64,000 nt of DNA. Origin: Dysgonomonas sp. PH5-45 (lineage in GTDB: Bacteria > Bacteroidota > Bacteroidia > Bacteroidales > Dysgonomonadaceae). The DNA lies in assembly GCF_029893235.1 (NCBI RefSeq), contig NZ_JARXWE010000016.1:1-64000 (forward strand), given 5' to 3'. The notes below the pieces were generated by a model. That model was not told the origin of the DNA, did no database searches, and saw nothing but the letters and a program-made list of their open reading frames with translations. The first letter of the stretch is position 1, and every line of letters starts with the position of its first letter. Positions 35,500 through 51,309 of this stretch are shown here, in pieces. Made by a program: the position numbers and the translations under genes.

Positions 35500-35643
35500 T
35501 CACGGTTTAGAGCAGGTCGGCATAAATTCATCAAAACCAAACCCTTGCAAGCAAAGAATTCGCCAAGCTCCGTTCTCTTTCAGAGCTTTTAGGCTGTAAG
35601 CCAAAAATACAAAGACGGACAACAGTATAACTATATATTTCAT
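35500..35643 (-). CDS. Small exported peptide candidate (47 aa)
   Basis: An ATG at 35643 opens a 47-residue frame with a clean signal-like start MKYIVILLSVFVFLAYSLKA, then ALKENGAWRILCLQGFGFDE and FMPTCSKP. The mature part would be about 29 residues with two cysteines about 16 apart. Hydrophobic core, lysine at position 2 and two cysteines suggest a real exported peptide, but I recognise no family. It lies alone in a 1-kb non-coding stretch, on the same strand as the membrane regulator gene at 36270-38033. Confidence 0.45.
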   Translation of the reverse strand: MKYIVILLSVFVFLAYSLKALKENGAWRILCLQGFGFDEFMPTCSKP

Positions 35644-35930: not shown

Positions 35931-35953
35931 ACGTAGTTTTAATGTACTACGTA
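35931..35953. promoter_or_regulatory. 23-bp interrupted palindrome, copy A
   Basis: It reads ACGTAGT-N8-ACTACGT-A, a perfect 7-bp inverted repeat with an 8-bp spacer. 20 of its 23 bases recur at 38467-38489. It lies 116 nt upstream of the small membrane-peptide frame starting at 36070. Symmetry and length suit a dimeric DNA-binding protein. Confidence 0.55.
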
Positions 35954-36069
35954 AATAAAAAAATAGAGGTAATTAAGTAGAAAGGAATTCAAATATTTAT
36001 CTCAATTGCTTTTTCTTTGACCTTGGTTAGTTTCCCCAAACTTGTATTGATACCTTATAGTAAATAACG

Positions 36070-36237
36070 ATGAAGCCTCTTCATCTATTATCGAAACAAA
36101 GAATAAAACCTGATATAGATATGCCCATCAAAACGAAAAACAAAAAACTTCAGCCAAAAGCTAAGATCAGAATTATATTGGGAGTGTATGCAATAGTTGC
36201 AGTTGCTATATTAGTTCTGATATTCAACATTATATAG
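36070..36237 (+). CDS. Tiny single-pass membrane peptide (55 aa, or 38 aa from inner start)
   Basis: The frame starts at ATG 36070 or, in the same frame, at ATG 36121. The C-terminal half is a basic stretch KTKNKKLQPKAKIRI followed by one hydrophobic helix GVYAIVAVAILVLIFNII ending at the stop. This fits an inner-membrane peptide with its N-terminus inside. The 38-residue version is the neater one. A 23-bp palindrome upstream is shared with the T9SS cargo operon. No known function. Confidence 0.5.
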   Translation: MKPLHLLSKQRIKPDIDMPIKTKNKKLQPKAKIRIILGVYAIVAVAILVLIFNII

Positions 36238-36269
36238 CAGCATTTAGCTTCTACGTAATTTCACGAAGG

Positions 36270-38033
36270 TTAGTCGTCCAATAGTTTTCTGAGAAACTGC
36301 ACAGTTTTTTCGTCTGTGGGAATATTCAAATTCCTGCGCAACCGGTAAATCAGCGTCTCGATGGTTCTTACCGAACGGTTGGTTATTTGCGCTATTTCCT
36401 TTGTATTCATGTTCAACACCAGCAGAGCGCAAAGACGTTGCTCCATCTTTGTGAGGTTTGGATTTATTTTATCCAGATTTGTGTAGAATGAATGGTGTAT
36501 CTGTTCGAAATAGAGCTTAAACTCGTCCCAGCCTTGGTGCGAGTTATAGGAACTGATAACAGAGGCCATTTCTTCCGTAATACTTTTTTGCTTATCCTGC
36601 TCTTTGGTTATCAGCAATTGCTTTATGCTTCTGTCGAGGCTACCCAACATCTCGTTCGTTTTCATCAGGAATAAGGCATTGCTTGCCAGTTTGCGGTCTT
36701 TCTCTTCGAGCGAAACCTCGTATTCTTTCCTTATCACTTCCTGCTGAGCGCTGGTTTCTTTTTCAATATTCTTTACCGAACTTCGGTATATACGGCGCAC
36801 CAAAACAAAAGCCACTACACTCACCACCAACAACAAAAAAAGCAAGATGATGAGTATAACATTCTTCTTTAAATTAGAAAGGTTGGCCAGCTGCAACTCT
36901 TTCTCCAACAGGTTTTTTTCGGTACTGATTTTATAATTATCGAACTGTTGCGAAAGTATGGAAATCTTCTCCATATTCTGGTTGCTGAACAAGGAATCGC
37001 GTATCACCATCCCTTGTTTCATATAATCGCACGCTTTTTGGTACTGATGGGTGTTGTAGTACAGGTCAGACAATTCGATAAGCACCGAACCTTTTATCTG
37101 GATAGCACCGGCAGCCTCCGCGGCTTGCAATGCCCGGAGGTAGTATTCTTCCGAAGCCCCCAGCTCTTTAATCTCGTACAATAGGAAAGCCATATTCTGC
37201 AAAAGACGGGCATAGTTGTACGGTTCCTTATGCGAAACATCTATCGCCTTCTGCAGATAGTCTTTAGCCATGGCATATTCGCCCATGTCCTGATATATTA
37301 TTGCCATATTATGAAACATATACGACTTAGACGATATATCTTCGGCATAGTCGTAATATTTGACCGACAGATTCAGATAATACAGAGCCGAATCCAGCTG
37401 CTTTGTTGTATAATAATATCCTGCCAATGAGTTATATACGGTCGACGATGTTTTCATCATGGTTGCACTGTCTGTTTCGGACAGCAACTTCAAGGCCATG
37501 CTATTGTACGTTTTGGACTTTTCCATTTGCCGCACATGCATAAAAACAAACCCTAAATACGAACAGGCATCTATTGTGTATCTGTTGACAGGCTGCTGTA
37601 CAATAGAAAAGAAATACGAAATACTTTCGTCATACATCCCCAAATTCCGGCAGTTCTTGCCCAAAATCAGACGTATTTTGTTCATCTCCAAGGAATCTTG
37701 GCGCGATAGAGACCGGAGGTTTTTCATTTCGTCCAATATTTTCGCCCCTGTCTTATACGACTCTATGTATCCACCGTTTTCGGACGAAAGCTGCATTTTC
37801 TTTATGGCCATCGTCCGTTCCATCTTATAGTCTTTTGCATTTCTATAATAGTTCAGGGTGCTATCATAGAAAGCTATTTTCTGTTGATAGGGCACTTTCT
37901 CATCTTCAATCATCGACCGGTAATATTGTATTTTGGCTTGGTCTTGCAAAGATTGGGCAAACATTGCCGGAGAAAGGCTTCCGAGGAATACAACTACGTA
38001 TATCTGAAGTAATCTTTTTATTATACAATTCAT
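36270..38033 (-). CDS. Membrane-spanning TPR regulator with C-terminal HTH
   Basis: This 587-residue protein joins an exported sensor to a DNA-binding end. A signal peptide (1-26, ending AMFA) is followed by TPR repeats over about residues 30-370 (e.g. YHNMAIIYQDMGEYAMAKDY-type units), one membrane helix at about 388-412 (VILIILLFLLLVVSVVAFVL), a coiled coil at about 420-460, and a LuxR-like helix-turn-helix near 545-575 (MNTKEIAQITNRSVRTIETL). Similar TPR-TM-HTH proteins are frequent in Bacteroidota and thought to be one-component membrane regulators. It is transcribed away from the T9SS cargo operon, and shared palindromes flank it, so it is the best candidate for that operon's regulator (inference). 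Confidence 0.82.
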   Translation of the reverse strand: MNCIIKRLLQIYVVVFLGSLSPAMFAQSLQDQAKIQYYRSMIEDEKVPYQQKIAFYDSTLNYYRNAKDYKMERTMAIKKMQLSSENGGYIESYKTGAKILDEMKNLRSLSRQDSLEMNKIRLILGKNCRNLGMYDESISYFFSIVQQPVNRYTIDACSYLGFVFMHVRQMEKSKTYNSMALKLLSETDSATMMKTSSTVYNSLAGYYYTTKQLDSALYYLNLSVKYYDYAEDISSKSYMFHNMAIIYQDMGEYAMAKDYLQKAIDVSHKEPYNYARLLQNMAFLLYEIKELGASEEYYLRALQAAEAAGAIQIKGSVLIELSDLYYNTHQYQKACDYMKQGMVIRDSLFSNQNMEKISILSQQFDNYKISTEKNLLEKELQLANLSNLKKNVILIILLFLLLVVSVVAFVLVRRIYRSSVKNIEKETSAQQEVIRKEYEVSLEEKDRKLASNALFLMKTNEMLGSLDRSIKQLLITKEQDKQKSITEEMASVISSYNSHQGWDEFKLYFEQIHHSFYTNLDKINPNLTKMEQRLCALLVLNMNTKEIAQITNRSVRTIETLIYRLRRNLNIPTDEKTVQFLRKLLDD

Positions 38034-38056
38034 TTTCTACCAAATTCACTTATACA

Positions 38057-38064
38057 CAAAAATA
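38057..38064 (-). promoter_or_regulatory. -7 promoter box of the TPR/HTH regulator
   Basis: The minus strand reads TATTTTTG, a perfect -7 match, 23 nt before the ATG at 38033, giving a short leader. Confidence 0.6.
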
Positions 38065-38638
38065 ATTCTTTTCGCATATAATAAAGAATATTATTACATA
38101 TTAACACAAACTGTTTAATGAAACCGGAAACCGCAATATTTACATTTAAGTAATTTTTAGAAATAGTGTGGCGATCAAATACACCGTTTCAAAATATCCA
38201 CAATACCACCAATCCGGTCATTCGTCAAACTATTTGTAAACATATATGGAATAATCCATAAATTACGAAAACCAATAAGCCATTTTTTGATAAAAAAAGA
38301 AAGAATAACACCCTATTGTAGTGACATAAATGAGCTTTTTTTTCGTGAAAGAAGAAAAATACGGATATTTAGGCCCAAATAACCAATAAAAAGATACGTT
38401 TTTAAACCATAAATTAAAAATTTTACACCACTTAAATATCTATTTATCAATACATATACGCACCATACGTAGTTTTTACGTATTACGTATTTTGTTTTGT
38501 AGGGATAATAGAGTAAAAATAAAAATCCGTTTTCATTTAATAAAGCTTTTCTTTGATATTGGACAAGAGTCTTCAATAACATAAAATAATATTTAAATAT
38601 CATATTTGACTAAATTAATCTAAATAAACTTCTTTGTT
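38065..38638. other. AT-rich divergent intergenic region between regulator and T9SS operon
   Basis: It has no convincing gene; an open minus-strand frame at 38313-38603 is AT-driven and resembles nothing. It contains palindrome copy B (38467-38489) and, closer to the cargo operon, CATATTTG at 38601-38608 (7 of 8 consensus bases of the -7 box), about 30 nt before the ATG at 38639. Confidence 0.5.
38467..38489. promoter_or_regulatory. 23-bp interrupted palindrome, copy B
   Basis: ACGTAGT-N8-ATTACGT-A, the same arrangement as copy A at 35931-35953 with one mismatch in the second arm. It ends 149 nt upstream of the leucine-rich-repeat gene and about 430 nt upstream of the divergent regulator gene. 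Confidence 0.55.
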
Positions 38639-41600
38639 ATGAAAAAACTATTACTCTTTTCTGCAGCCCTGTTAATTGGGATATTTTATATCATAGGGCA
38701 AGAGTGGCAAACAAAGGCTGTCACGGATTATGAAACGCCGGCAATAACAATGACTACAACCGACGAAGTACAAAACCAGACATTGACTATAACCGTAAAA
38801 GCAAATGCCGCGGGCAATATCATGGTCGATTTTGGGAATGACACGCAAGTATCATTTACCGCCACAGCAAACTCAACCCTCAATATGAGTGGAACTGTTG
38901 CTGGCTCCAGCGTAAAGGTTTATACACCCGACGGTATGTCTATCACAGATTTACAAATAAAGGGTATTGCCGAAGCTCCGGCTCTCAAAACAATCAACAT
39001 CACGGCTCTGACCGGACTAAAAATGCTGACTCTTTCTTATCACAAGTTCACGACGCTCGATGTTTCTAAAAATACCGAGTTGGTTTCGGCCACTTGTACA
39101 TACACCGATTTAGCGGCATTGAATCTGAACAGCAACAAGAAGATGCATACCATAAACTGTTCTTACAACAAATTAAGGACACTAACCGTAAACGATGCAA
39201 CTACATTGAAAAACATTACTTGTAACAACAACCAACTTTCTCAACTTAAACTCTCTGATACAGGAAACGGGGGAACAGTAGAAAAACTTGTTTGTTCTGA
39301 CAATAAACTGACCGCACTCGACCTGACAAAGAACACATGGCTCAGTGACATAGAATGTGCCAATAACGAATTAACCACACTCAACTTAACCGGCCAGAAC
39401 AGCTCATGGAGAGTATTGAATGTGGCTAATAACAAACTGACCGAACTTATTTTGCCAGCATCAATGAATGGTGGAATGTCTGCAAAAAAGCTGTATTGCG
39501 AAAACAATCAGATTGCCAAACTGGATGTACCCCTTGGCTTACGCTACACAGCATTCCATTGCTATGGTAATAATTTAAAATATAGCACCTTGCCAATACT
39601 TACAGGCGATATGAACAGCAACGTAAAATATGCTCCTCAAAACGGAGTGGTAATACCCCGAATAGGAACCGTTGCCGACCTAAGCAGTGAATATACCGTA
39701 AATGGAGTAACCACAGAGTATAAATGGTTTAAAACAAGCGGTACACTCCTTCTGCAAGGAACAGATTATACATTCAACGCAGGGGTTACCACATTCACCC
39801 GCGAACAAGACGAAGACGTGTATGGAGTACTATCGAACACAACCTTCCCCGACTTCGACCTAAGCGATACCGACAAACTGAAAACAATGCCAATCACAAT
39901 TACATCGGCATCCAACATGGGACCCGTCATAACAATGGAAGCAACCGAAGCATACAAAGGCAGTTCTTTATCGATAAGAATGACCCCTACAACATCAGGT
40001 AATGTTTATGTTGATTATGGAAATGGGTACTTCGAGCCATTCACCGCAACAGCAAATACTACCCTTAACGCCGCAAAACCATGCCAAGGCAAGGATGTTA
40101 CCGTTTATCTGCCTAAGGGAATGGATTTGAAGGATATTCGTGTAAACGGCAGTTCCACAACATCTGCCTTGTCATCGATCGACCTTTCGCAAATAGACTC
40201 TTTAAATTCGGTGATTCTCAACTACAATGCAATAGAACGATTGGATTTAACAAACAAACGTAAGCTCGAAACCCTTACTGTTACTTATGGCACCCTAAAG
40301 GAACTTATCCTTACTGGCGACACCCTGCTTACAACCTTGTCGTTATACAGCAACGAACTCGAAACGCTCGATTTTACCGGAAACTACAAAGTTCGCAGCA
40401 TCAATGCGAACACCAACAAACTAAAGAGCGTAAATACCAGTGCACTGCCCGAACTTTACTTATTGGACGTATCCGGTAATGAATTAACATCAATCGATGT
40501 ATCCAAAAACGGCAAACTCTCTAATTTTAAAATAAATAGCAATAAAATAGCAGCCATTGATGTTTCTAAAAACCTCGAACTGTCCGATTTCAACTGTTAC
40601 GACAACGAATTGGGGGCACTTGACCTCAGTACAAACAAGAAAATCTCTAATTTGCAATGTGGAAAAAATAAATTGACAGCCATAGATGTAACCCAGTTAG
40701 GTGAAAAACTAACAACATTCCGATGCGAAGACAATCTGCTCACAAGCATCGATGTTTCTAAAAATGAGTTTCTACGCCAGTTCCATTGTCAAAACAATCA
40801 ACTTACCGAACTGGATATAACTCAAAATCCGTCTATCAATAACTTCTTCTGCCATAACAATCAGCTAAGGACTCTCGACTTGTCTAAGCAGCAAGGGCTT
40901 ATGCAATACAATTGCTCAGGCAATTATTTCAAGTTCAGCACATTGCCAAGCCCATTCTCTATAATGAGTTTCACATATGCACCACAGCATGATGTAGAAA
41001 TACCCGCTTCGGCAAACATTGTTGACTTCAGTGCCGAAGATAGTATATCAGTAGATATGTATGGCGAAAAAAAGACATTCTATACAACTTACAAATGGAC
41101 AACATCATCGGGAACAGAACTAACCGAGGGTGAAGACTACAAAATAGAAAAGGGCGTAACAACCTTCCTGAAACCTCAGCAAGACAGTGTTTTCTGTACA
41201 TTGGCAAACGAGGCATTCCATAGCTTCAAGGACAACAATGCCTTGAAAACAACAATGACAAAAGTTGTTCTGTACAACCCTGTGGTTACACTCACCACAA
41301 CCGACGATGCTCAAGAAAAACGGGTTACAATATCTGTAACAACTGATGCCGAAGGAACTATCAAGGCTGATTTTGGCGATGGTAACCTTACCGATTTCGA
41401 AATTGCTTCGGCAGGAAGAGGCGTCAACATTCAGGGCGAAGTAAATGGCAACAATATTACTTTGTATGCTTCCAGCGGAATGAACATCACAGCTTTGCAG
41501 GCAAACGGAAGTTCTTCTGCTCCATATTATAGCACTTTGGATGTTAGTACTCTTACTACGTTAACTTCGTTGAGCGCAAATTATAATGCCTTGACCGCGT

Positions 41601-43078
41601 TAGACCTCACTAATAACACCGCCCTTAAAACGCTAAACGTTGCCAACAATCAACTGGCATCGATCGATGTATCGAAAAACGTAGAGTTGACAACTTTGAA
41701 TTTGGCAAACAATAAACTTGCTGATATAGATGTTTCGAAACTGACCGATTTGCAAACACTGAACATTCAGAAAAACGAATTGACAAGCCTCAACGTTTCG
41801 GCAAACACAGCTCTGAAAACACTGGAAGTATTCGACAACGGGCTTAGCATTCTGAATGTATCGACCAATACCCATCTCGAAACGCTTAACCTTCAGAATA
41901 ACCAGATTACAGGTCTTAATCTGACCGGCAATACAGGACTGCGGTTCCTGAACTGTGCAAACAACAAATTGACAGCACTTAATCTGGCTACAAATACAAA
42001 CCTATCCAGCGTTAATTGCAGTAACAACGAAATCGCATCGCTCGATTTGAACAATTCTACAAAAGCGCATACGCTCGATTGTTCTTCCAACAAACTGACG
42101 TCTTTAAGCATCAATTTATCGGTAGGGCTGAAAAACATTATTTGCAGCAGCAACCAGCTCACTGCCTTAGAGCTTCCTGATGCTGGCGATGGAGGTAATA
42201 TCGCAAATATCACTTGTTCCGACAATAAGATTACGTCTCTCGACCTTTCAAAGAACAACCTGATATCCATCCTTGTATGTGCCAACAACCTGTTGACGGA
42301 ATTGTCGGTAGCAGACCAAACAATAATGCGGACACTGAATGTTGCCAATAATAAACTGACAACACTCAATCTGCCGGAATCGAAAGAAATGAAGTACCTC
42401 AATTGCGAAAACAATATGCTAACCGAACTCACATTACCTACTGTGATGTGGAAAACACTTGAATGTTACGGAAATAAACTTAAATTCAGTACATTGCCTA
42501 CACCTTTCTATGCCGAAGTATTCAATTACGCGCCGCAAGAAGACATCGAAATTCCTGCTACAATCAACGTAGGGAACGAACTCGACCTCAGCAGCGAATA
42601 TAAGATAGGGTATCAGGTGTTAGAAGACGAAAACATGGTCGACAAAACAGCTTTCTCTGCCTACAAGTGGATAACAACCGCCGGAACAGAGCTTGTGGAA
42701 GGAACAGACTATACCATTACCGACGGGAAAACAACATTCCTCAAAGCATTTGATGCTGTGTATTGTGTTCTGGAAAATGAATTATTCCCTAACTTCGAAG
42801 ATGATAATCAATTTAAGACTTCGGTTATTAAAGTTGAGGCCGGAAGCGGCATTACCAACCATCAGGTACAGGTTTGCATATATGCCCTCAATCAAACCAT
42901 CTTTATAGAAGGTCAAAACGGTGCTAATGTTACAGTGTACACCATAACCGGAAAAGCAATCGCAACCGCAAGGCTCGATAGCGATTATAGCCAAATTCCG
43001 ATGGAAGCACAGGGTGTCTTTATTGTGAAGCTCACCAATAATGGCCACACAACAAACCATAAGGTTTTAATTAAATAG
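38639..43078 (+). CDS. Giant leucine-rich-repeat surface protein with T9SS sorting domain, three tandem modules
   Basis: A 1479-residue secreted protein. After a signal peptide (about 1-20) come three homologous modules starting near residues 34, 428 and 881. Each has a beta domain (e.g. VITMEATEAYKGSS, with VDFGN / VDYGN / ADFGD), a run of roughly 21-residue leucine-rich repeats of the L-x-x-L-x-C/V-x-x-N-x-L-x-x-L-D-V-S-x-N kind as in internalin J, and an Ig-like closing domain (YAPQ...IP, EYKW, TTFL). From about 1406 a T9SS type A sorting domain follows, ending KVLIK. LRR arrays of this type bind proteins, so adhesion to a host or polymer is likely. First gene of a four-gene operon. Confidence 0.9.
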   Translation: MKKLLLFSAALLIGIFYIIGQEWQTKAVTDYETPAITMTTTDEVQNQTLTITVKANAAGNIMVDFGNDTQVSFTATANSTLNMSGTVAGSSVKVYTPDGMSITDLQIKGIAEAPALKTINITALTGLKMLTLSYHKFTTLDVSKNTELVSATCTYTDLAALNLNSNKKMHTINCSYNKLRTLTVNDATTLKNITCNNNQLSQLKLSDTGNGGTVEKLVCSDNKLTALDLTKNTWLSDIECANNELTTLNLTGQNSSWRVLNVANNKLTELILPASMNGGMSAKKLYCENNQIAKLDVPLGLRYTAFHCYGNNLKYSTLPILTGDMNSNVKYAPQNGVVIPRIGTVADLSSEYTVNGVTTEYKWFKTSGTLLLQGTDYTFNAGVTTFTREQDEDVYGVLSNTTFPDFDLSDTDKLKTMPITITSASNMGPVITMEATEAYKGSSLSIRMTPTTSGNVYVDYGNGYFEPFTATANTTLNAAKPCQGKDVTVYLPKGMDLKDIRVNGSSTTSALSSIDLSQIDSLNSVILNYNAIERLDLTNKRKLETLTVTYGTLKELILTGDTLLTTLSLYSNELETLDFTGNYKVRSINANTNKLKSVNTSALPELYLLDVSGNELTSIDVSKNGKLSNFKINSNKIAAIDVSKNLELSDFNCYDNELGALDLSTNKKISNLQCGKNKLTAIDVTQLGEKLTTFRCEDNLLTSIDVSKNEFLRQFHCQNNQLTELDITQNPSINNFFCHNNQLRTLDLSKQQGLMQYNCSGNYFKFSTLPSPFSIMSFTYAPQHDVEIPASANIVDFSAEDSISVDMYGEKKTFYTTYKWTTSSGTELTEGEDYKIEKGVTTFLKPQQDSVFCTLANEAFHSFKDNNALKTTMTKVVLYNPVVTLTTTDDAQEKRVTISVTTDAEGTIKADFGDGNLTDFEIASAGRGVNIQGEVNGNNITLYASSGMNITALQANGSSSAPYYSTLDVSTLTTLTSLSANYNALTALDLTNNTALKTLNVANNQLASIDVSKNVELTTLNLANNKLADIDVSKLTDLQTLNIQKNELTSLNVSANTALKTLEVFDNGLSILNVSTNTHLETLNLQNNQITGLNLTGNTGLRFLNCANNKLTALNLATNTNLSSVNCSNNEIASLDLNNSTKAHTLDCSSNKLTSLSINLSVGLKNIICSSNQLTALELPDAGDGGNIANITCSDNKITSLDLSKNNLISILVCANNLLTELSVADQTIMRTLNVANNKLTTLNLPESKEMKYLNCENNMLTELTLPTVMWKTLECYGNKLKFSTLPTPFYAEVFNYAPQEDIEIPATINVGNELDLSSEYKIGYQVLEDENMVDKTAFSAYKWITTAGTELVEGTDYTITDGKTTFLKAFDAVYCVLENELFPNFEDDNQFKTSVIKVEAGSGITNHQVQVCIYALNQTIFIEGQNGANVTVYTITGKAIATARLDSDYSQIPMEAQGVFIVKLTNNGHTTNHKVLIK
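39000..42500 (+). repeat. Three-fold modular repeat inside the LRR gene
   Basis: The gene contains three LRR blocks, at about 39000-39600, 40160-40950 and 41520-42500, each flanked by related beta and Ig-like segments. The DNA has diverged, with no long exact identity, so the triplication is old rather than a recent slippage. Confidence 0.75.
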
Positions 43079-43175: not shown

Positions 43176-44951
43176 ATGAGAAAATCACTACTATCGCTTA
43201 TAATACCCTTATTTGCTTTTTGCTACGGGTATTCGCAAGTACTTTTTGAGGCCAACTTCGACGTTCAGGCCGACAGAGAAAAATGGGTCAACATCGACAA
43301 CGATGGCGATGGCTTTAAATGGGGGGCAGGCCCTCTTGGTGTAGACGACGATTGGGCTATGACCTCGCCGTCCATCCATCCCCAGCTTGGCACTCCTCTC
43401 ACTCCCGACGATTGGTGGGTAACCCCCATAATAGATTTAACATCGCTACCCGAGGGCGAAAAGATAACCCTTTCGTACTACATTGGCGTTCTGGACGAGG
43501 AAGAACTGATGAGTTATAAGGTTTACATAACCGAAACAATACATCAGGACACGGCGTATGTAGCCGACTTCTCTAAAATAATCAGAAGCGAAACTGTTCG
43601 CGAATGGCCTAACGATTACTACCTTTTCCGTTCCCTCAACCTAAGTGCTTATTCCGGCAAAAAAGTCAGAATAGCCTTCCAGCACAATGGTTCCATAGGC
43701 TCCTCTTACCTGCTGTTGGATAAGGTTAAAATACAGAAAACGGGCGCGGGCGCAGACTTGTTTCTCGATCAGATATATAGTCCCGGAAGGGGATACGCTT
43801 ACAACCTGAATAAAGAGATACCCGCTCAGGTAAAAATAGGAAACACAGGCCTTTCAACAGCCACAGGTGTAAAACTGTCATATACGGTGAATGGCGCTAA
43901 AACAACGGAAAGCATACCCGACCTCGAAGCCGGCGAAACGTTCACTTACGAGTTCGAGAATAGCATTCCGGGGTTTTCCCAAATACAAGATCCTACCGAT
44001 ATCGTATTTACCATTACTTGCGACAATGACGGGAACAGTGCCAATAACTCAAAAAGCTCCTCTTTCTATGTTTTCCCACCGAATCCCGGTATTAAATGGG
44101 ATTTCGAAACAGTGGAATGTTTCAATCTGTTTACCAAAACAAAATACGACGACAATACTATCTACCCTGACAAAGTGTTGCGATCGCTTTTCCCTAAGAA
44201 TGAGGCATGGAACCTGATTAAAGGACAGAGCGGAGAAGACAATCCGTTCCCCGAAGGATGGGGAATAGGATTTGCGGCAAGTACATCTTGTTTCGAACCT
44301 AACGGACAGGCCGACCGTTGGCTGATAACACCCCGGATTAACCTTAAAATCGACGATGGCAACCAATTCCTTTTGTACTGGTATGGAGCCACATACGCAA
44401 CAAACATCTCCGGTGGTATCGGGCTGGTAATACCCGAATCGTACGAAATTTTGGTTTCGGAAAAAGGGTTGGAGAAAGAAGACTTTAAACTGATAGGGAA
44501 AGTAGACCACGAAAACGGAGAAATGGAATATCCTATCAGGCATTGGTTAGATGTTTCAGAGTATGCCGGCAAGGATGTGTACTTTGCCTTCCGCAATCAT
44601 AGCAATCCTGTTGGCGTAATCAGCCCTACAATATTGGTTATAGACAACATCACCATCTACCACCAAGGTACGGTGGGCGGAATGTCTGTACTCGAAACAG
44701 AATTGACAAACCCCGACACCAATGTTTCGGTATATCCTAATCCGGTGGTAACCGAGTTGACTGTTTCGTGTGCTACGGATATCAATTCCATTAATATTTA
44801 CAACCTGTTCGGGCAATTGGTTTACAGCCTTAAATCCGGTGCAACCAATACCCATATTATCAACGTGAGCGACCTCCCTGCCGAAATGTATCTGCTGAAG
44901 GTGGAAACAACCGATGGACAGGTTACAACAAAGAAATTTATCAAGAAATAA
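43176..44951 (+). CDS. Choice-of-anchor-J domain protein with T9SS sorting domain
   Basis: A 591-residue secreted protein. Order: signal peptide (1-20), a first choice-of-anchor-J/cleaved-adhesin domain (about 22-190, VLFEANFDVQADREKWVNID ... LDKVKI), a CARDB-like beta domain (about 195-300, GYAYNLNKEIPAQVKIGNTG), a second J domain (about 305-505, IKWDFETVECF ... VIDNITIY), and a T9SS sorting domain from about 515 (VSVYPNPVVTELTV ... KKFIKK). J domains occur in gingipain haemagglutinin regions and bind proteins or glycans. Second gene of the cargo operon; the next gene follows after 27 nt. Confidence 0.88.
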   Translation: MRKSLLSLIIPLFAFCYGYSQVLFEANFDVQADREKWVNIDNDGDGFKWGAGPLGVDDDWAMTSPSIHPQLGTPLTPDDWWVTPIIDLTSLPEGEKITLSYYIGVLDEEELMSYKVYITETIHQDTAYVADFSKIIRSETVREWPNDYYLFRSLNLSAYSGKKVRIAFQHNGSIGSSYLLLDKVKIQKTGAGADLFLDQIYSPGRGYAYNLNKEIPAQVKIGNTGLSTATGVKLSYTVNGAKTTESIPDLEAGETFTYEFENSIPGFSQIQDPTDIVFTITCDNDGNSANNSKSSSFYVFPPNPGIKWDFETVECFNLFTKTKYDDNTIYPDKVLRSLFPKNEAWNLIKGQSGEDNPFPEGWGIGFAASTSCFEPNGQADRWLITPRINLKIDDGNQFLLYWYGATYATNISGGIGLVIPESYEILVSEKGLEKEDFKLIGKVDHENGEMEYPIRHWLDVSEYAGKDVYFAFRNHSNPVGVISPTILVIDNITIYHQGTVGGMSVLETELTNPDTNVSVYPNPVVTELTVSCATDINSINIYNLFGQLVYSLKSGATNTHIINVSDLPAEMYLLKVETTDGQVTTKKFIKK

Positions 44952-44978: not shown

Positions 44979-47780
44979 ATGAAAAAATATATCTCACTCG
45001 CGGTAATTCTGTGCTTCGCGGCTCTTTGCAGCCTTTTGGCACAAGACGGCACATGGAAAGTATTGAATTCGACCGACTTAATGAAAGAATACAACTTCAA
45101 TCAGGTAACTTTCGCCCCCGGTCTTAATTATCATCAGGGTTATGCCTCAGGGTTCATTTTTGCCGAAAACATTGATGGTACAGGAGCTGTACTGAAAACT
45201 ATGGACGGCGGTGATACGTGGGCTATCTTGAAAACAACAAACGAATCGTATGGCGGACTGACCAACGGAAAAATGTTTGGCTCCATATTTTACGCATGGG
45301 GAAAAGAAAAAACCCTTTTAAAAGGTGAAAGCGGTGGCCTTATATGGTCTTTGCTCACCCTCCCGGAAACAAGCGAAAGCGAAATACTTGATGCCGAATT
45401 CAAATCGGACGGTGTTACAGGCATCATTACCGATGGCAAACACATATATTATACTTCTAACGGAGGAACAGCTTGGGGCGAATCTGAATTGCCCAACGGT
45501 GTTACGGGTATCAGTGACCTTGTTTATGCGGGTGGCAATCTATTCTTTGCCGTTGGCCAAAAAGGGCAAATACTCAAATCGACCAACAGCGGATATCAAT
45601 GGACTGTAGTAAACAACAGTAATACAACTATAAACTTTACGGCAGCCATCTTTAGGGATAGCGACTACGGGGTTTTTGCAGGGGTTTCAACCGTAAGCCC
45701 CAAGAAAGCGTGTATCTGGCTTACCACCAATGGCGGTTTGGATATATTTGAAGCGCAAACAATCGAAACCACCAATATCTTCAAGAGTTTTACTTCTACA
45801 AACGACGGACATTTATATACCATCAGCGATGGCGGTAAGCTTATCCGTTCGATTGACGAAGGTCTTACATGGAACAATGTGGCGCTTGATATGCCTGTCG
45901 GCCAAACAGCAAAAGCATTCACCATAACTCCGCACAATGTAATGTATGCCGTAGGCGAACTGGGTTTAGTAGAAATCAATGCTCCGAAACTGAAAGCCGA
46001 TTTTGCGTCGTACTTACCAGACAACAGCAAAAAAAATGAATTTGCCTTCACCAATAAATCGGAGGGGTATATCTCATCTATAAAATGGAGGTTCGAGAGT
46101 GCCAATCCTTCGGAAGGTTTTGGTAGGGAAGTCCCTCTTGTTTCTTTCAATAAATCGGGCTCGTGGGACGTAACATTGGTTGTAACCGGAAAATGCCCCG
46201 GAACCACTGCTACTGTATCAGACACAATAATCAAGCCTATCGAGGCAATAGCCGATTTCGATTGGGAACTATTTGTTATAGGCGATTACCGGAATACAAG
46301 AGTTGTGTTCCCCGAAGGGCAAAACCTTATAGGATTTATGACCACAAGCTATATGACCACCGGACAAAAAGGGGAAATCTGGAAAACTACCGATGGTGGT
46401 AATACTTGGAGATGTGTGCTGAAATCGACCGACGATCTTGTTGTTAAAGGACTTGAAGGATTAGATTTTTGTAATCTTCAGAAAGGTTATGCCTGTGGAT
46501 TTGGTGCTTCATTTACCGGAAAAGGAGGTAAAGACTCTCAATTGTGGAGAACCACCGACGAAGGCGAAACATGGAGTCTTGTAGATTTGAGCGGCGTTGA
46601 GAGCTATGGTACTGAAGAGTATTTCGGGAATATCGTTTTCTCGGACGAGAACACAGGGGTATTGCTGTACACAACAAAGGTATTTTATACAGAAGACGGT
46701 GGTACAACGTGGAATTTAGGAAAAATAAAATCCAATATCTGGAATGGCATCAGGGCTAATATGTCTTTATGGGATATTTGTTCGGCCGACGACAGCACAT
46801 TCTACGGTGTGGGTAAAGACAATCAGGTGTTCAAATCGGACGATGGCGGGAAAAACTGGGTCCTTGTATATTCAGCCGAACAAGGAGCGCAACAGTATTA
46901 CACATCTGTTGGTTTCCGCGATGCCAATTACGGTATTGTAGGCCCTGACGACACCAGCGACGGAAACGTTTACCTAACAACCGACGGTGGCACAACATGG
47001 TCGGAAATCCCTACCAAAACATATGCCATATTCAATACCGTCGATTTTGTTAACGATACCACTGTTTACATAGGCGGTACAACCTATTCTTCAACCATTC
47101 TTAAAAGTATAGATGGCGGCCTTACATGGACAGAAGAAAAACATCCGAGCATCGGCGAAGCTCTGAATGATATAAGCCACTCCTCAACCGGTGTTGTTTA
47201 TGCTACCGGATCAAGTGGTGTATTCAAACGCTATATTCCTGAAATCAACGCGGAATTTTCTTTTGTACAAGACGATGAAAAGAAAAACCTTGACGTAGAA
47301 TTCCGTAACGGTTCGTTCGGATTCCTTACAGACTACGAATGGAAAGTGAACGGAGAAGTTAAATCAACAAAATTCAACCCGGTAATAACATTCCCCGGAG
47401 CAGGTACTTACCAAGTCACTCTGACCGTATCGGGAAATCATCCCGACAAGGGTTTATTATCAGCCACCGTTACCAAGAGCATCGAAATAGTTGGAGGTTC
47501 TTCTATCGAGGACGAAACATTATCGGGTGGCGATTTGAATGTCTTTCCAAATCCTGTTGTCGATATGCTGAATTATTCTTTCAGTCTGAACAAATCGGCC
47601 AATGTTAAAGTCGACATCATGAATGTAAACGGGCAGACAATCGCCACGCAACAGTATACAAGCCTCGAAGCCGGAGAATACTTGTATAAAGTAAACGCCG
47701 AGTCTTGGAACAAAGGTGTATATCTTCTTCAACTCGTTGTTGACGGAAGTGTAGTGAAAACTGTTAAGATTATCAAGTAA
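44979..47780 (+). CDS. Ycf48/BNR-type beta-propeller protein with two PKD domains and T9SS sorting domain
   Basis: A 933-residue secreted protein. It carries at least ten short propeller motifs of the DGGxTW kind (e.g. MDGGDTWAILK, TTDGGTTWSEIP, SIDGGLTWTEEK) in two groups, about residues 25-335 and 420-745. A PKD-like domain follows each group (about 338-415 and 756-845, with GAGTYQVTLTVSG). A T9SS sorting domain starts near 854 (LNVFPNPVVDMLNYSFSLN) and ends KTVKIIK. The propellers resemble BNR/sialidase and photosystem assembly factor folds but no catalytic sialidase residues are evident, so binding is the likely role. Third gene of the operon. Confidence 0.88.
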   Translation: MKKYISLAVILCFAALCSLLAQDGTWKVLNSTDLMKEYNFNQVTFAPGLNYHQGYASGFIFAENIDGTGAVLKTMDGGDTWAILKTTNESYGGLTNGKMFGSIFYAWGKEKTLLKGESGGLIWSLLTLPETSESEILDAEFKSDGVTGIITDGKHIYYTSNGGTAWGESELPNGVTGISDLVYAGGNLFFAVGQKGQILKSTNSGYQWTVVNNSNTTINFTAAIFRDSDYGVFAGVSTVSPKKACIWLTTNGGLDIFEAQTIETTNIFKSFTSTNDGHLYTISDGGKLIRSIDEGLTWNNVALDMPVGQTAKAFTITPHNVMYAVGELGLVEINAPKLKADFASYLPDNSKKNEFAFTNKSEGYISSIKWRFESANPSEGFGREVPLVSFNKSGSWDVTLVVTGKCPGTTATVSDTIIKPIEAIADFDWELFVIGDYRNTRVVFPEGQNLIGFMTTSYMTTGQKGEIWKTTDGGNTWRCVLKSTDDLVVKGLEGLDFCNLQKGYACGFGASFTGKGGKDSQLWRTTDEGETWSLVDLSGVESYGTEEYFGNIVFSDENTGVLLYTTKVFYTEDGGTTWNLGKIKSNIWNGIRANMSLWDICSADDSTFYGVGKDNQVFKSDDGGKNWVLVYSAEQGAQQYYTSVGFRDANYGIVGPDDTSDGNVYLTTDGGTTWSEIPTKTYAIFNTVDFVNDTTVYIGGTTYSSTILKSIDGGLTWTEEKHPSIGEALNDISHSSTGVVYATGSSGVFKRYIPEINAEFSFVQDDEKKNLDVEFRNGSFGFLTDYEWKVNGEVKSTKFNPVITFPGAGTYQVTLTVSGNHPDKGLLSATVTKSIEIVGGSSIEDETLSGGDLNVFPNPVVDMLNYSFSLNKSANVKVDIMNVNGQTIATQQYTSLEAGEYLYKVNAESWNKGVYLLQLVVDGSVVKTVKIIK

Positions 47781-47796
47781 AACAGCACCAAGAATC

Positions 47797-50700
47797 ATGC
47801 AAAAAAAGAATAAATATTGGATTTTAGCCGGATTCTTCGTCTTCTTTATAGCCTGTTTCGGTATTCAGGCGCAAGAGGTGGAATATGTACCGGGACGCAT
47901 AAGCGTGAAGCTCGACCGGGAGGCCGCTTTCAAAATATCGCCCCGGCTACGGTCGGGACAGATAAAGTCCGCATCGCCCACGTATGTGCAAACAGGTATT
48001 TCGGGGCTCGATGCTGTTTTGAAGCAAGCCAAAACAACCCGCCTAAGGCGCTTACTGCCTTACAGTCCGAAGTATGAAGAACGTTACAAAGCCGAAGGAC
48101 TGGATTTGTGGTACGAACTGGAAGTGGAAGAGGCTAATATCCTTCAGATTGTTAAAAACTTGGCCAGCCAGCAGGGAATCCTGCTGGCCGAGCCTGTTTA
48201 TCCGATAAAACAAGCCTCCGCAGCCAACAACGATTACCCTTTTAACGACCCGCATATAGGCAAACAATGGAGTTATAACAATACCGGATTCAACCCCGAA
48301 AGCGGTTTGCCGGCCGGAACAGCCGGAACGGACATAAACCTCTATAAGGCGTGGGAAATAACAGCCGGTTCGCCCAACGTTGTTGTTGCCATAATGGATG
48401 CCGGAGTCGATGTGAAACATCCCGACTTGGTTGCCAACCTATGGGTCAACACTGCCGAAAAAGGTGGGGCATCGGGGGTAGACGATGATGGCAACGGATA
48501 TATAGACGACATACACGGACACGACTTCGTTAACCACAACCTAACCATCGAAGCCAGCGACCACGGAACCCATGTGGCAGGAACGGTAGCCGCCACCAAT
48601 AACAACGGGGTAGGTGTTGCCGGAGTTGCCGGAGGAACCGGAAAAGGCGATGGCGCGCGTATAATGTCGTGCCAGGTAATGACAGCCAACGGAGCCAGCG
48701 GAGATATATTCGAAGCCTTTGTTTATGCCGCCAACAATGGTGCTGTTATAGCACAATGCAGTTGGGCATGGATGACGGCAGGGTACAAGAACCAAGCCGT
48801 ATTGGATGGTATAGACTATTTTGTTAAATACGCGGGTAAGGATAGCGAAGGTAATCCCCTTACAAGAACACCCATGAACGGTGGCTTAGTTGTTTTTGCC
48901 GCAGGGAATAACGGTTTTGACGATGCCTACTATCCTGCCTATTACGAAAAATGCTATGCCGTAGCTGCCGTGAACATAGACAAAGAACGTGCGGTTTATT
49001 CCAACTACGGCTCATGGATAGACATAACCGCGCCGGGAGGATGGGACAAATCGCCAAGCGGACAGTTTGGTAATATACTGAGCACACGCCCCCACTCTGC
49101 GTATGGCTACGACTTCGGCACATCCATGGCCTGCCCCCATGTATCGGGCGTTGCCGCGTTAATCTTGTCTAAGTACGGAAATGGTAATTTCACCCCCGAG
49201 ATGTTGAAACAGCGAATATCGTCAACAGCACGGGTATTAACTTCCGATCCCGGTAAAATGGGTGCAGGGTTCGTTGATGCTTTTGCCGCGCTTAGTTCCG
49301 ATATACCCGATGCTGAGGCAAACCTGTACTTTGGGTCTTTCCTGCTGGAAGAAAACAACGACGGGTCTTTTGTTACATACGAACAGCCTTTCAGAATATT
49401 AAATTCCGGAAGCGGGGAAATGGTTATATCAGCAATGGAGTTTTCGAGCAACCAATACACTATAACAGGCTTCACCGCGGGGCAAAAACTGAAATCCGGA
49501 GAATATGCCGATTTTACAGTCCGGTTCACTCCCACAGCTGTTGGAGGATACAAAGACAAACTTACGGTAACTTACGGGGGAAGCTTTTCGGGAAAATCAA
49601 CGGAGACTTTCCTGCATGCAAACATAACAGGCTGGGCAACCACCCGCAAAGTTGTTCTTTTCAAGGACGACTTCGAAAGAGGCATGTACAAATGGAGCTC
49701 GTCCGATCAGGATGGCGACCGCCGCAATTGGTTTTACGAAATAAATAGCAGCTATATACTCGCTAAGTCGGGCTCTTTCTTCGTAACATCCGAAAGCGGA
49801 TCATCTACCGAAAGTTATACTCCTAACAATTGGCTCATATCGCCCGTTATAGACCTTACGGAATGTCCCGAAAACTCAGATGTGGTGCTTTCGTACTGGG
49901 TTCGCATCATCTCTTCTACCTTCGGTGCGGAAAACTACAAAGTAGCTGTTTCTACTGTACCCGAGAAGGATTTTGCACCGGCCGACTTCAGCAATATACT
50001 TATATCGGAAGCCGTAGAACCTTCCGACTTTAACGACGGATACAACCACAAAACCGTATCACTGAGCGCGTTTTCAGGGAAGAAAATTAAAATTGCCTTT
50101 ATACATGCCGAAACATCGCCAAGCAGGGTGCTTGTTCTGGACGATGTTGAAGTAGCACATTTCCCTAAGAAAGATTTTGCCCAAGTGGTTATCAATAAGA
50201 TGGTTTCGCCCGGATACGAAATAGTGAAGGGGGCAAATTACCCTCTCACCATATCGGTAAGTAATATCGGTAACCTCGCGGCTCAGAACGTTGAGGTAGC
50301 ATATACTTTTGGCCAGAATTCTAAGGTGAAGGGCACAATACCAAACATTGCGGCAGGCAAAACGGTTTCCTATACATTCAGCACAGAAATAAGTGCCGAT
50401 ATGGAAGGAGACAACGATTTGCTTATCGAGGCAAATTGCCCGGCCAACCTATTCAAAAATTCGGATAATGTAAAGAACTGGTTTACAGGCAAAATATGGA
50501 TTAACCCCTACCCTGCCGAATATACATGGGACTTTGAGAGGACTAACAGTCAGGGATTGTATTGGCCAAGTAATTTCACGAAATTCAATTACGACAAAAA
50601 CACGGTCGATCCTTTCCTTAAATACACATCGTGGGGAGCTCAATGGCCGTCAACCGACAATAATGCTTGTTTGGCAAACTACTTCTTGGCCAATAATACC

Positions 50701-51309
50701 GCTTTCGGGCAGCGGGTCATAGTATCTGCCTCGTACTTCAAACCCCAAGGCAAAGCCAATCGCGGATTTATAATTGACGTGCCCGAGGTGAAAGCCGATA
50801 AGGTGTACCTGAAGTGGACCGCACGCTCCTTCAGTGAGGATGCCCCCGAAAGCTATCAGGTGTTGATTGCCTCCGAAGATGTGAGCGACGTGGACGGATT
50901 CACTTTGCTGAAAACCGTGACAAACGAAAACTGGGAGTTGACAAACCATCTGATTGATGTTTCGCAATATGCCAACAAGCCTTTCCGGGTTGCTTTCCGC
51001 CAAATTACGGAAAACGGGCTAATATTGCTTTGGGACAACATCAGCATACTCAGTTCTTCGGCATCGTCTATCAACCCCGAAGTTCAAACAGACCAACTAT
51101 TGGTATATCCAAATCCTGCAAAAGACAGGATTACTATCAGGAATACAGCCTCTATGAATCAGCTACGCATAGTTGATCTAAAAGGGCGAACCCTGATGGA
51201 TATCAACAATATTAACAAAGAAGCGGTAGAAGTGAATATATCTGCATTTGAGAAAGGTATTTATATTGTTTATGTTGACGGCAAAGCAGCCAAGATTATA
51301 AAGCAATAA
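47797..51309 (+). CDS. Subtilisin-like (S8) serine protease with anchor-J domains and T9SS sorting domain
   Basis: A 1170-residue secreted protease. The catalytic residues are all visible: Asp201 (VVVAIMDAGVDVKHPD), His259 (DHGTHVAGTVAA), Asn371 in AAGNNGFDD and Ser443 (GTSMACPHVSGVAALI). A signal peptide (about 1-26) and a pro-region (about 28-145) precede the catalytic domain (about 165-500). Then come a beta domain, a first choice-of-anchor-J domain (about 618-790), a CARDB-like domain, a second J domain (about 908-1090) and a T9SS sorting domain from about 1102 (LLVYPNPAKDRITIRN). It is last in the cargo operon (16 nt gap), closed by a strong terminator. It may process its operon partners or degrade external protein (inference). 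Confidence 0.93.
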   Translation: MQKKNKYWILAGFFVFFIACFGIQAQEVEYVPGRISVKLDREAAFKISPRLRSGQIKSASPTYVQTGISGLDAVLKQAKTTRLRRLLPYSPKYEERYKAEGLDLWYELEVEEANILQIVKNLASQQGILLAEPVYPIKQASAANNDYPFNDPHIGKQWSYNNTGFNPESGLPAGTAGTDINLYKAWEITAGSPNVVVAIMDAGVDVKHPDLVANLWVNTAEKGGASGVDDDGNGYIDDIHGHDFVNHNLTIEASDHGTHVAGTVAATNNNGVGVAGVAGGTGKGDGARIMSCQVMTANGASGDIFEAFVYAANNGAVIAQCSWAWMTAGYKNQAVLDGIDYFVKYAGKDSEGNPLTRTPMNGGLVVFAAGNNGFDDAYYPAYYEKCYAVAAVNIDKERAVYSNYGSWIDITAPGGWDKSPSGQFGNILSTRPHSAYGYDFGTSMACPHVSGVAALILSKYGNGNFTPEMLKQRISSTARVLTSDPGKMGAGFVDAFAALSSDIPDAEANLYFGSFLLEENNDGSFVTYEQPFRILNSGSGEMVISAMEFSSNQYTITGFTAGQKLKSGEYADFTVRFTPTAVGGYKDKLTVTYGGSFSGKSTETFLHANITGWATTRKVVLFKDDFERGMYKWSSSDQDGDRRNWFYEINSSYILAKSGSFFVTSESGSSTESYTPNNWLISPVIDLTECPENSDVVLSYWVRIISSTFGAENYKVAVSTVPEKDFAPADFSNILISEAVEPSDFNDGYNHKTVSLSAFSGKKIKIAFIHAETSPSRVLVLDDVEVAHFPKKDFAQVVINKMVSPGYEIVKGANYPLTISVSNIGNLAAQNVEVAYTFGQNSKVKGTIPNIAAGKTVSYTFSTEISADMEGDNDLLIEANCPANLFKNSDNVKNWFTGKIWINPYPAEYTWDFERTNSQGLYWPSNFTKFNYDKNTVDPFLKYTSWGAQWPSTDNNACLANYFLANNTAFGQRVIVSASYFKPQGKANRGFIIDVPEVKADKVYLKWTARSFSEDAPESYQVLIASEDVSDVDGFTLLKTVTNENWELTNHLIDVSQYANKPFRVAFRQITENGLILLWDNISILSSSASSINPEVQTDQLLVYPNPAKDRITIRNTASMNQLRIVDLKGRTLMDINNINKEAVEVNISAFEKGIYIVYVDGKAAKIIKQ

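Follow-up and report, generated by a model that had tools for sequence, protein, structure and literature searches.

Two interrupted palindromes in the genome of Dysgonomonas sp. PH5-45 bracket the gene of a membrane-anchored TPR-HTH regulator and head two promoters of the same layout, P1 and P2, the second of which precedes four T9SS cargo genes. The palindromes are best explained as activator sites to which this local regulator would bind, a reading with a probability of about 0.6. The window is the whole stretch of DNA analyzed, 64,000 nucleotides at the start of contig NZ_JARXWE010000016.1; the features discussed are collected in Table 1. A sequence-only reading had proposed the palindromes as an operator pair for the regulator encoded between them. 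Both lie where it placed them, and direct comparison verifies that the second copy is identical to the first at 20 of 23 bases. Within the 2.65-Mb genome they are the sole copies with fewer than two arm mismatches to ACGTAGT-N8-ACTACGT, and matches with two or three mismatches show no excess over a reversed control pattern (57 versus 156). When every 22-mer of the window whose arms match at 6 or more of 7 positions is considered, no other pair has 18 or more of 23 bases in common; for the one spacer length tested, a 20/23 pair arose in none of 100 dinucleotide shuffles. Other matches in a motif scan of the same genome, 101 genomes of the family and 393 of the order are almost all intragenic or at chance level. 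The exact 23-mer occurs nowhere else in the family and order genomes scanned, so retention of the motif at orthologous loci is not observed; this comparison has little power because the regulator itself has no close orthologue in the genus or family (101 family genomes).

Table 1. Features at and around the two palindromes (positions in the window)
Feature	Position	Strand	Remark
Site 1, interrupted palindrome ACGTAGT-TTTAATGT-ACTACGT-A, proposed operator O1	35931..35953	+	0 arm mismatches (35931-35952)
P1 second conserved block TAGAGGTAATTAAGTAGAAA	35964..35983	+	15/20 identical to site 2 copy; near position of relatives' second GTAGT box
P1 -7-like core TTTTCTTTGACCTTGG	36011..36026	+	14/16 identical to P2, same 80-bp offset
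Terminator-like hairpin GATGAAGAGGCTTCATC with T-rich tail	36069..36085	-	~185 bp past the regulator stop codon
Possible membrane peptide of 38 aa (55 aa from start 36070), unproven	36121..36237	+	Open frame downstream of P1
Regulator, 587 residues: signal peptide, periplasmic TPR, one TM helix, coiled linker, C-terminal LuxR/GerE-like HTH	36270..38033	-	
Site 2, ACGTAGT-TTTTACGT-ATTACGT-A, proposed operator O2	38467..38489	+	1 mismatch (38467-38488)
P2 second conserved block TAGGGATAATAGAGTAAAAA	38500..38519	+	Twin alignment with P1
P2 -7-like core TTTTCTTTGATATTGG	38547..38562	+	Twin alignment with P1
First cargo gene, LRR protein with C-terminal T9SS sorting domain	38639..43078	+	LRR_4, DUF6383, TIGR04183
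Cleaved-adhesin (choice_anch_J) T9SS cargo	43176..44951	+	Domain matches
BNR/Ycf48-like and PKD T9SS cargo	44979..47780	+	Domain matches
S8 subtilisin with cleaved-adhesin domain, T9SS cargo	47797..51309	+	Domain matches

The conserved unit is a promoter and larger than the palindrome alone. Counted from the start of the palindromes, the two copies share 59 of 96 bases without gaps. The runner-up within the window reaches 46, as does the best of 5000 shuffled pairs. Identity between sites 1 and 2 runs in successive segments of 20/23, 1/10, 15/20, 9/27 and 14/16, which leaves three conserved blocks at offsets 0-22, 33-52 and 80-95 with spacers at background level between them; the outer flanks of the unit are at background as well (16/60 and 19/64). 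The third block, the -7-like TTTTCTTTGAnnTTGG, lies exactly 80 bp downstream of the palindrome start at both sites. It resembles, with one mismatch, the Bacteroides -7 element, given as TAnnTTTG in PMC7366714, and the 8-mer TTTCTTTG at 36012 inside the P1 core is one base off this consensus. A clear -33 element is not visible at P1 or P2. Blocks 2 and 3, searched as one pattern, match P1 and P2 and no other place in the genome. Transcripts are predicted to start near 36026 and 38562, which would put the palindromes at about -95 to -73.

This layout also bears on two readings in which the palindromes are not operators. Site-specific recombination sites bounding a 2.5-kb element might be suspected from the 7-bp arms, the 8-bp spacer and the two copies around one gene, although the likeness appears superficial: conservation runs on for 70 bp on one side only, into promoter-like sequence, and no recombinase is recognized among the genes examined around the sites. 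On these grounds the reading is rejected as scarcely credible. RNA hairpins serving as terminators or attenuators, the second reading, would account for the predicted fold of the + strand (7-bp stems, -5.7 to -8.0 kcal/mol) and for the flagging of site 1 as terminator-like on the - strand. The stems are weak and A/U-rich, however, an Rfam match is absent, and an RNA stem would need neither an identical loop nor an 80-bp spacing. Since both palindromes lie upstream of the inferred promoter cores, they would fall outside the transcripts they precede, and the hairpin reading is likewise rejected as very improbable on account of this position, the weak stems and the missing Rfam match.

The two promoters face different surroundings. 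Behind site 2 stand four cargo genes in a row, and the label of T9SS operon given to them in the sequence-only reading is right, as all four products pass the cut-off of TIGR04183, the C-terminal T9SS type A sorting (Por_Secre_tail) domain. Adhesins, proteases and gliding proteins are among the T9SS cargo found across Bacteroidota, and to our knowledge little is established about how individual cargo operons are switched on. Behind P1, the tiny membrane-peptide gene described earlier is present as an open frame of 38 to 55 codons but is not established as a gene: it has no convincing homologue in 101 family genomes, and its first ATG falls within the terminator-like hairpin, which leaves the gene unproven. 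The hairpin itself is likely the terminator of the convergent regulator transcript. P1 could thus be taken for a relic, a promoter segment that arose by duplication or stayed in place after insertion or rearrangement of the regulator gene, with site 1 now functionless. Such a history would fit the lack of a convincing homologue of the frame, its overlap with the hairpin and the course of P1 toward the 3' end of the convergent regulator gene. Identities of 75-88% in the three blocks next to spacers at background point instead to selection on both copies and not to passive decay, and the relic is rather improbable.

The gene between the palindromes encodes a protein with an N-terminal TPR region (Pfam TPR_12 at 2.9e-15), a TM helix at about residues 391-412 and an HTH at about residues 525-587; signal peptide and single TM helix are predictions read off the sequence. 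Taken on its own, the HTH gives a weak Sigma70_r4_2 match below the Pfam cut-off. It aligns at 33-48% identity to the HTHs of the family, of which 15 of 24 members match GerE and all 24 match TPR models, and the earlier description of a LuxR-like HTH regulator between the palindromes holds through this alignment to GerE-matching relatives. The recognition helix reads SVRTIET.

Relatives of the regulator are tied to T9SS cargo. Their loci were picked solely by similarity to the regulator, and in the first set a T9SS-CTD gene lies within two genes of the regulator in 22 of 33 loci, with CTD genes making up 28/109 genes near regulators versus 6/140 farther off (p = 1e-6). A second, independent set shows a nearby CTD gene for 28 of 62 regulators, at 35/194 versus 0/30 genes. 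Both closest paralogues in the same genome are divergent from T9SS cargo; no such palindrome is found in their gaps. Several loci show further arrangements. One contig (L098, G228:C202, 3077-13275) carries two full TPR-TM-HTH regulators in alternation with T9SS cargo genes, all in the same orientation, and a third match at its end, suggesting regulator-cargo cassettes expanded by duplication. Five loci (L075, L076, L079, L080 and L081) form a one-genus block in which Omp28-like and CTD cargo genes are divergent from the regulator. A glycoside hydrolase family 2 gene lies right behind the regulator in L076, where it is confirmed by Pfam, and a gene of equal size does so in three other loci of that genus.

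Paired GTAGT boxes 31-33 bp apart occur upstream of divergent T9SS cargo beside sister regulators from three other families. Among the nearest relatives, a genus of another family is covered by nine genomes, whose regulators share 56-78% identity with the query taken from that genus. In 9/9 genomes, the regulator-cargo gap retains GTAGT-type boxes 32-33 bp apart, while the rest of the gap has drifted; conserved are TGCAGTAGTA, then TGCMGTAGTAAAACnRTGGTG 32-33 bp later, then TAAATTTG. In eight of the nine, the strict two-box pattern has a single occurrence in the whole genome, at the regulator-cargo locus. Two further families show GTAGT pairs 31-32 bp apart in the equivalent gap, one of them (L164) from a later, independent draw. 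Pairs at 31-33 bp are found in 3 of 78 non-redundant regulator gaps, compared to 0.06 expected, and all three regulators concerned have the helix [KR]E[VIL]RS[IV]E (3/5 versus 0/73, p = 1.3e-4). A family-wide GTAGT motif was considered and rejected, as overall enrichment is absent in 51 further regulator gaps. For the broader R[ST][IV]E helix class, the association with GTAGT gives p = 0.23 in set 1 and 0.003 in set 2 and is confounded by gap length, these regulators having the longer gaps. Direct repeats with an 11-bp period number 9 in the gaps of set 1 versus 2.3 expected, and 11 versus 3.6 in set 2, but periods 12 and 24 also reach 10 there, which makes the excess of 11-bp repeats equivocal in set 2. 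A perfect direct repeat of this period, TTGTAGAGTTTTTGTAGAG, lies in the regulator-cargo gap of a paralogous regulator in the same genome (L037, C19, 6897-7353).

The arms of the window palindromes carry this GTAGT core as well. The distance from GTAGT to the -7 8-mer is 79 bp at both window sites and, measured from the first box, 78-79 bp in the nine genomes; the window -7 element had already been fixed by aligning P1 with P2 when the relatives were first compared. In a scan with a profile trained on the nine genomes alone, the window promoters come 25th and 154th among 127,760 positions, a suggestive result that falls short of proof. The alignment of block 2 to their second GTAGT box is only suggestive. 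Each window site has one GTAGT with an inverted partner and a partly similar block 2, and thus stands outside the two-box class; the relatives carry direct repeats, the window a palindrome. The helix SVRTIET of the window regulator is related to that of the regulators with paired boxes. In the tree, the window regulator falls outside the clade with paired GTAGT boxes, and the 41-48% identity of its HTH to the HTHs of that clade is within the family-wide range and not specially close.

These differences count against the local regulator as the ligand. In an alternative reading, a factor encoded elsewhere, such as an orphan LuxR/NarL-type protein, another regulator or an alternative sigma factor reading TTTTCTTTGAnnTTGG, would co-regulate the twin promoters, and the TPR-HTH gene would be incidental. 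Other LuxR-type HTH regulators are encoded in the genome, any of them a possible ligand; the typical operator of the family is a direct repeat; the gaps of the paralogues in this genome are without the palindrome; and the -7-like block, at 14/16, is shared nearly as strongly as the palindrome, as a special sigma factor would predict. Sigma factors make no DNA contact 80 bp upstream, however, a global factor would need more than the two sites the genome has, and position and GTAGT spacing agree with the loci of sister regulators. A factor encoded elsewhere is therefore unlikely, if the most serious of the alternatives considered. The proposal of an operator pair is strengthened by the uniqueness of the sites in the genome, their bracketing of the regulator gene, the twin promoters at activator distance and the recurrence of GTAGT. 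Its other half, the assignment to this particular regulator, stays provisional and draws on the recurrence of the GTAGT core and its distance to the -7 element at T9SS cargo beside related regulators.

Under the preferred reading, the palindromes would be the operators of two co-regulated promoters, with the TPR-TM-HTH protein encoded between them as the likeliest ligand. Its periplasmic TPR domain may respond to a signal, either a protein or a peptide, and the LuxR-like HTH, kept at the cytoplasmic face of the inner membrane, would bind the ACGTAGT half-sites. These would be centred about 80 bp upstream of the predicted start, and the conserved block at about -60 to -45 would offer a second contact. 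Binding would bring RNA polymerase to a weak promoter that has no obvious -33 element. P2 would drive the four-gene cargo operon and P1 a short transcript convergent with the regulator gene at its 3' end. Activation is favoured as the probable sign of regulation: with sites this far upstream of the core promoter, repression is the less likely outcome. Tentatively, the large Bacteroidales family of membrane-tethered TPR-HTH proteins may be seen as local one-component switches of T9SS surface proteins, each reading a genome-unique operator that is composed of short box repeats, GTAGT in one branch, and set at a fixed, helically phased distance from the promoter, with regulator, operator and cargo traveling and diverging as a cassette.

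In membrane-tethered one-component regulators of the ToxR/CadC type, a single polypeptide crosses the membrane with one helix and links a sensor in the periplasm to a DNA-binding domain in the cytoplasm. The window regulator is reversed in order, with a C-terminal HTH that is LuxR-like and not winged OmpR-like, and has a TPR sensor. LuxR-type HTH proteins can bind inverted repeats with 7-bp arms, and the lux box has a 6-bp spacer. The window arms are also 7 bp long, but their letters differ and the spacer is 8 bp, and the sister lineages use direct repeats 31-33 bp apart. In Porphyromonas gingivalis, FimS of the FimS-FimR system likewise joins a periplasmic TPR sensor to a membrane helix and controls surface proteins; its sensor domain is reported to have eight TPRs and controls fimbriae (PMC11053733). 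The NCBIfam FimS model matches residues 132-417 of the window regulator at 2e-12, with 46 bits against a cut-off of 600. FimS is a histidine kinase and acts through a separate response regulator, whereas no kinase domain is found in the window regulator, which joins its HTH directly to the membrane sensor. The BT3442 family, also located beside surface-protein genes, gives a weak full-length match (NCBIfam NF053779, window residues 116-577, 23.6 bits against a cut-off of 940), and the relative in L076 matches it better, at 2.8e-21. BT3442 is a TPR protein heading a Bacteroides MACPF/lipoprotein cluster and is described with neither a regulator role nor an operator (PMC2954219).

The literature covered, which leaves most subscription journals outside, nowhere describes the TPR-TM-HTH family as cargo regulators. 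The family is widespread and apparently undescribed; it is associated with T9SS cargo, and one of its branches also with a defined DNA box. Membrane one-component regulation is a known principle; the association of this family with T9SS cargo is the added result. If the reading is right, a widespread undescribed regulator family gains a candidate set of target genes and a first candidate DNA site. Just left of site 1, at 35500-35643 on the - strand, lies an ORF of 47 residues (MKYIVILLSVFVFLAYSLKAL...) that resembles a small membrane-anchored or exported peptide.
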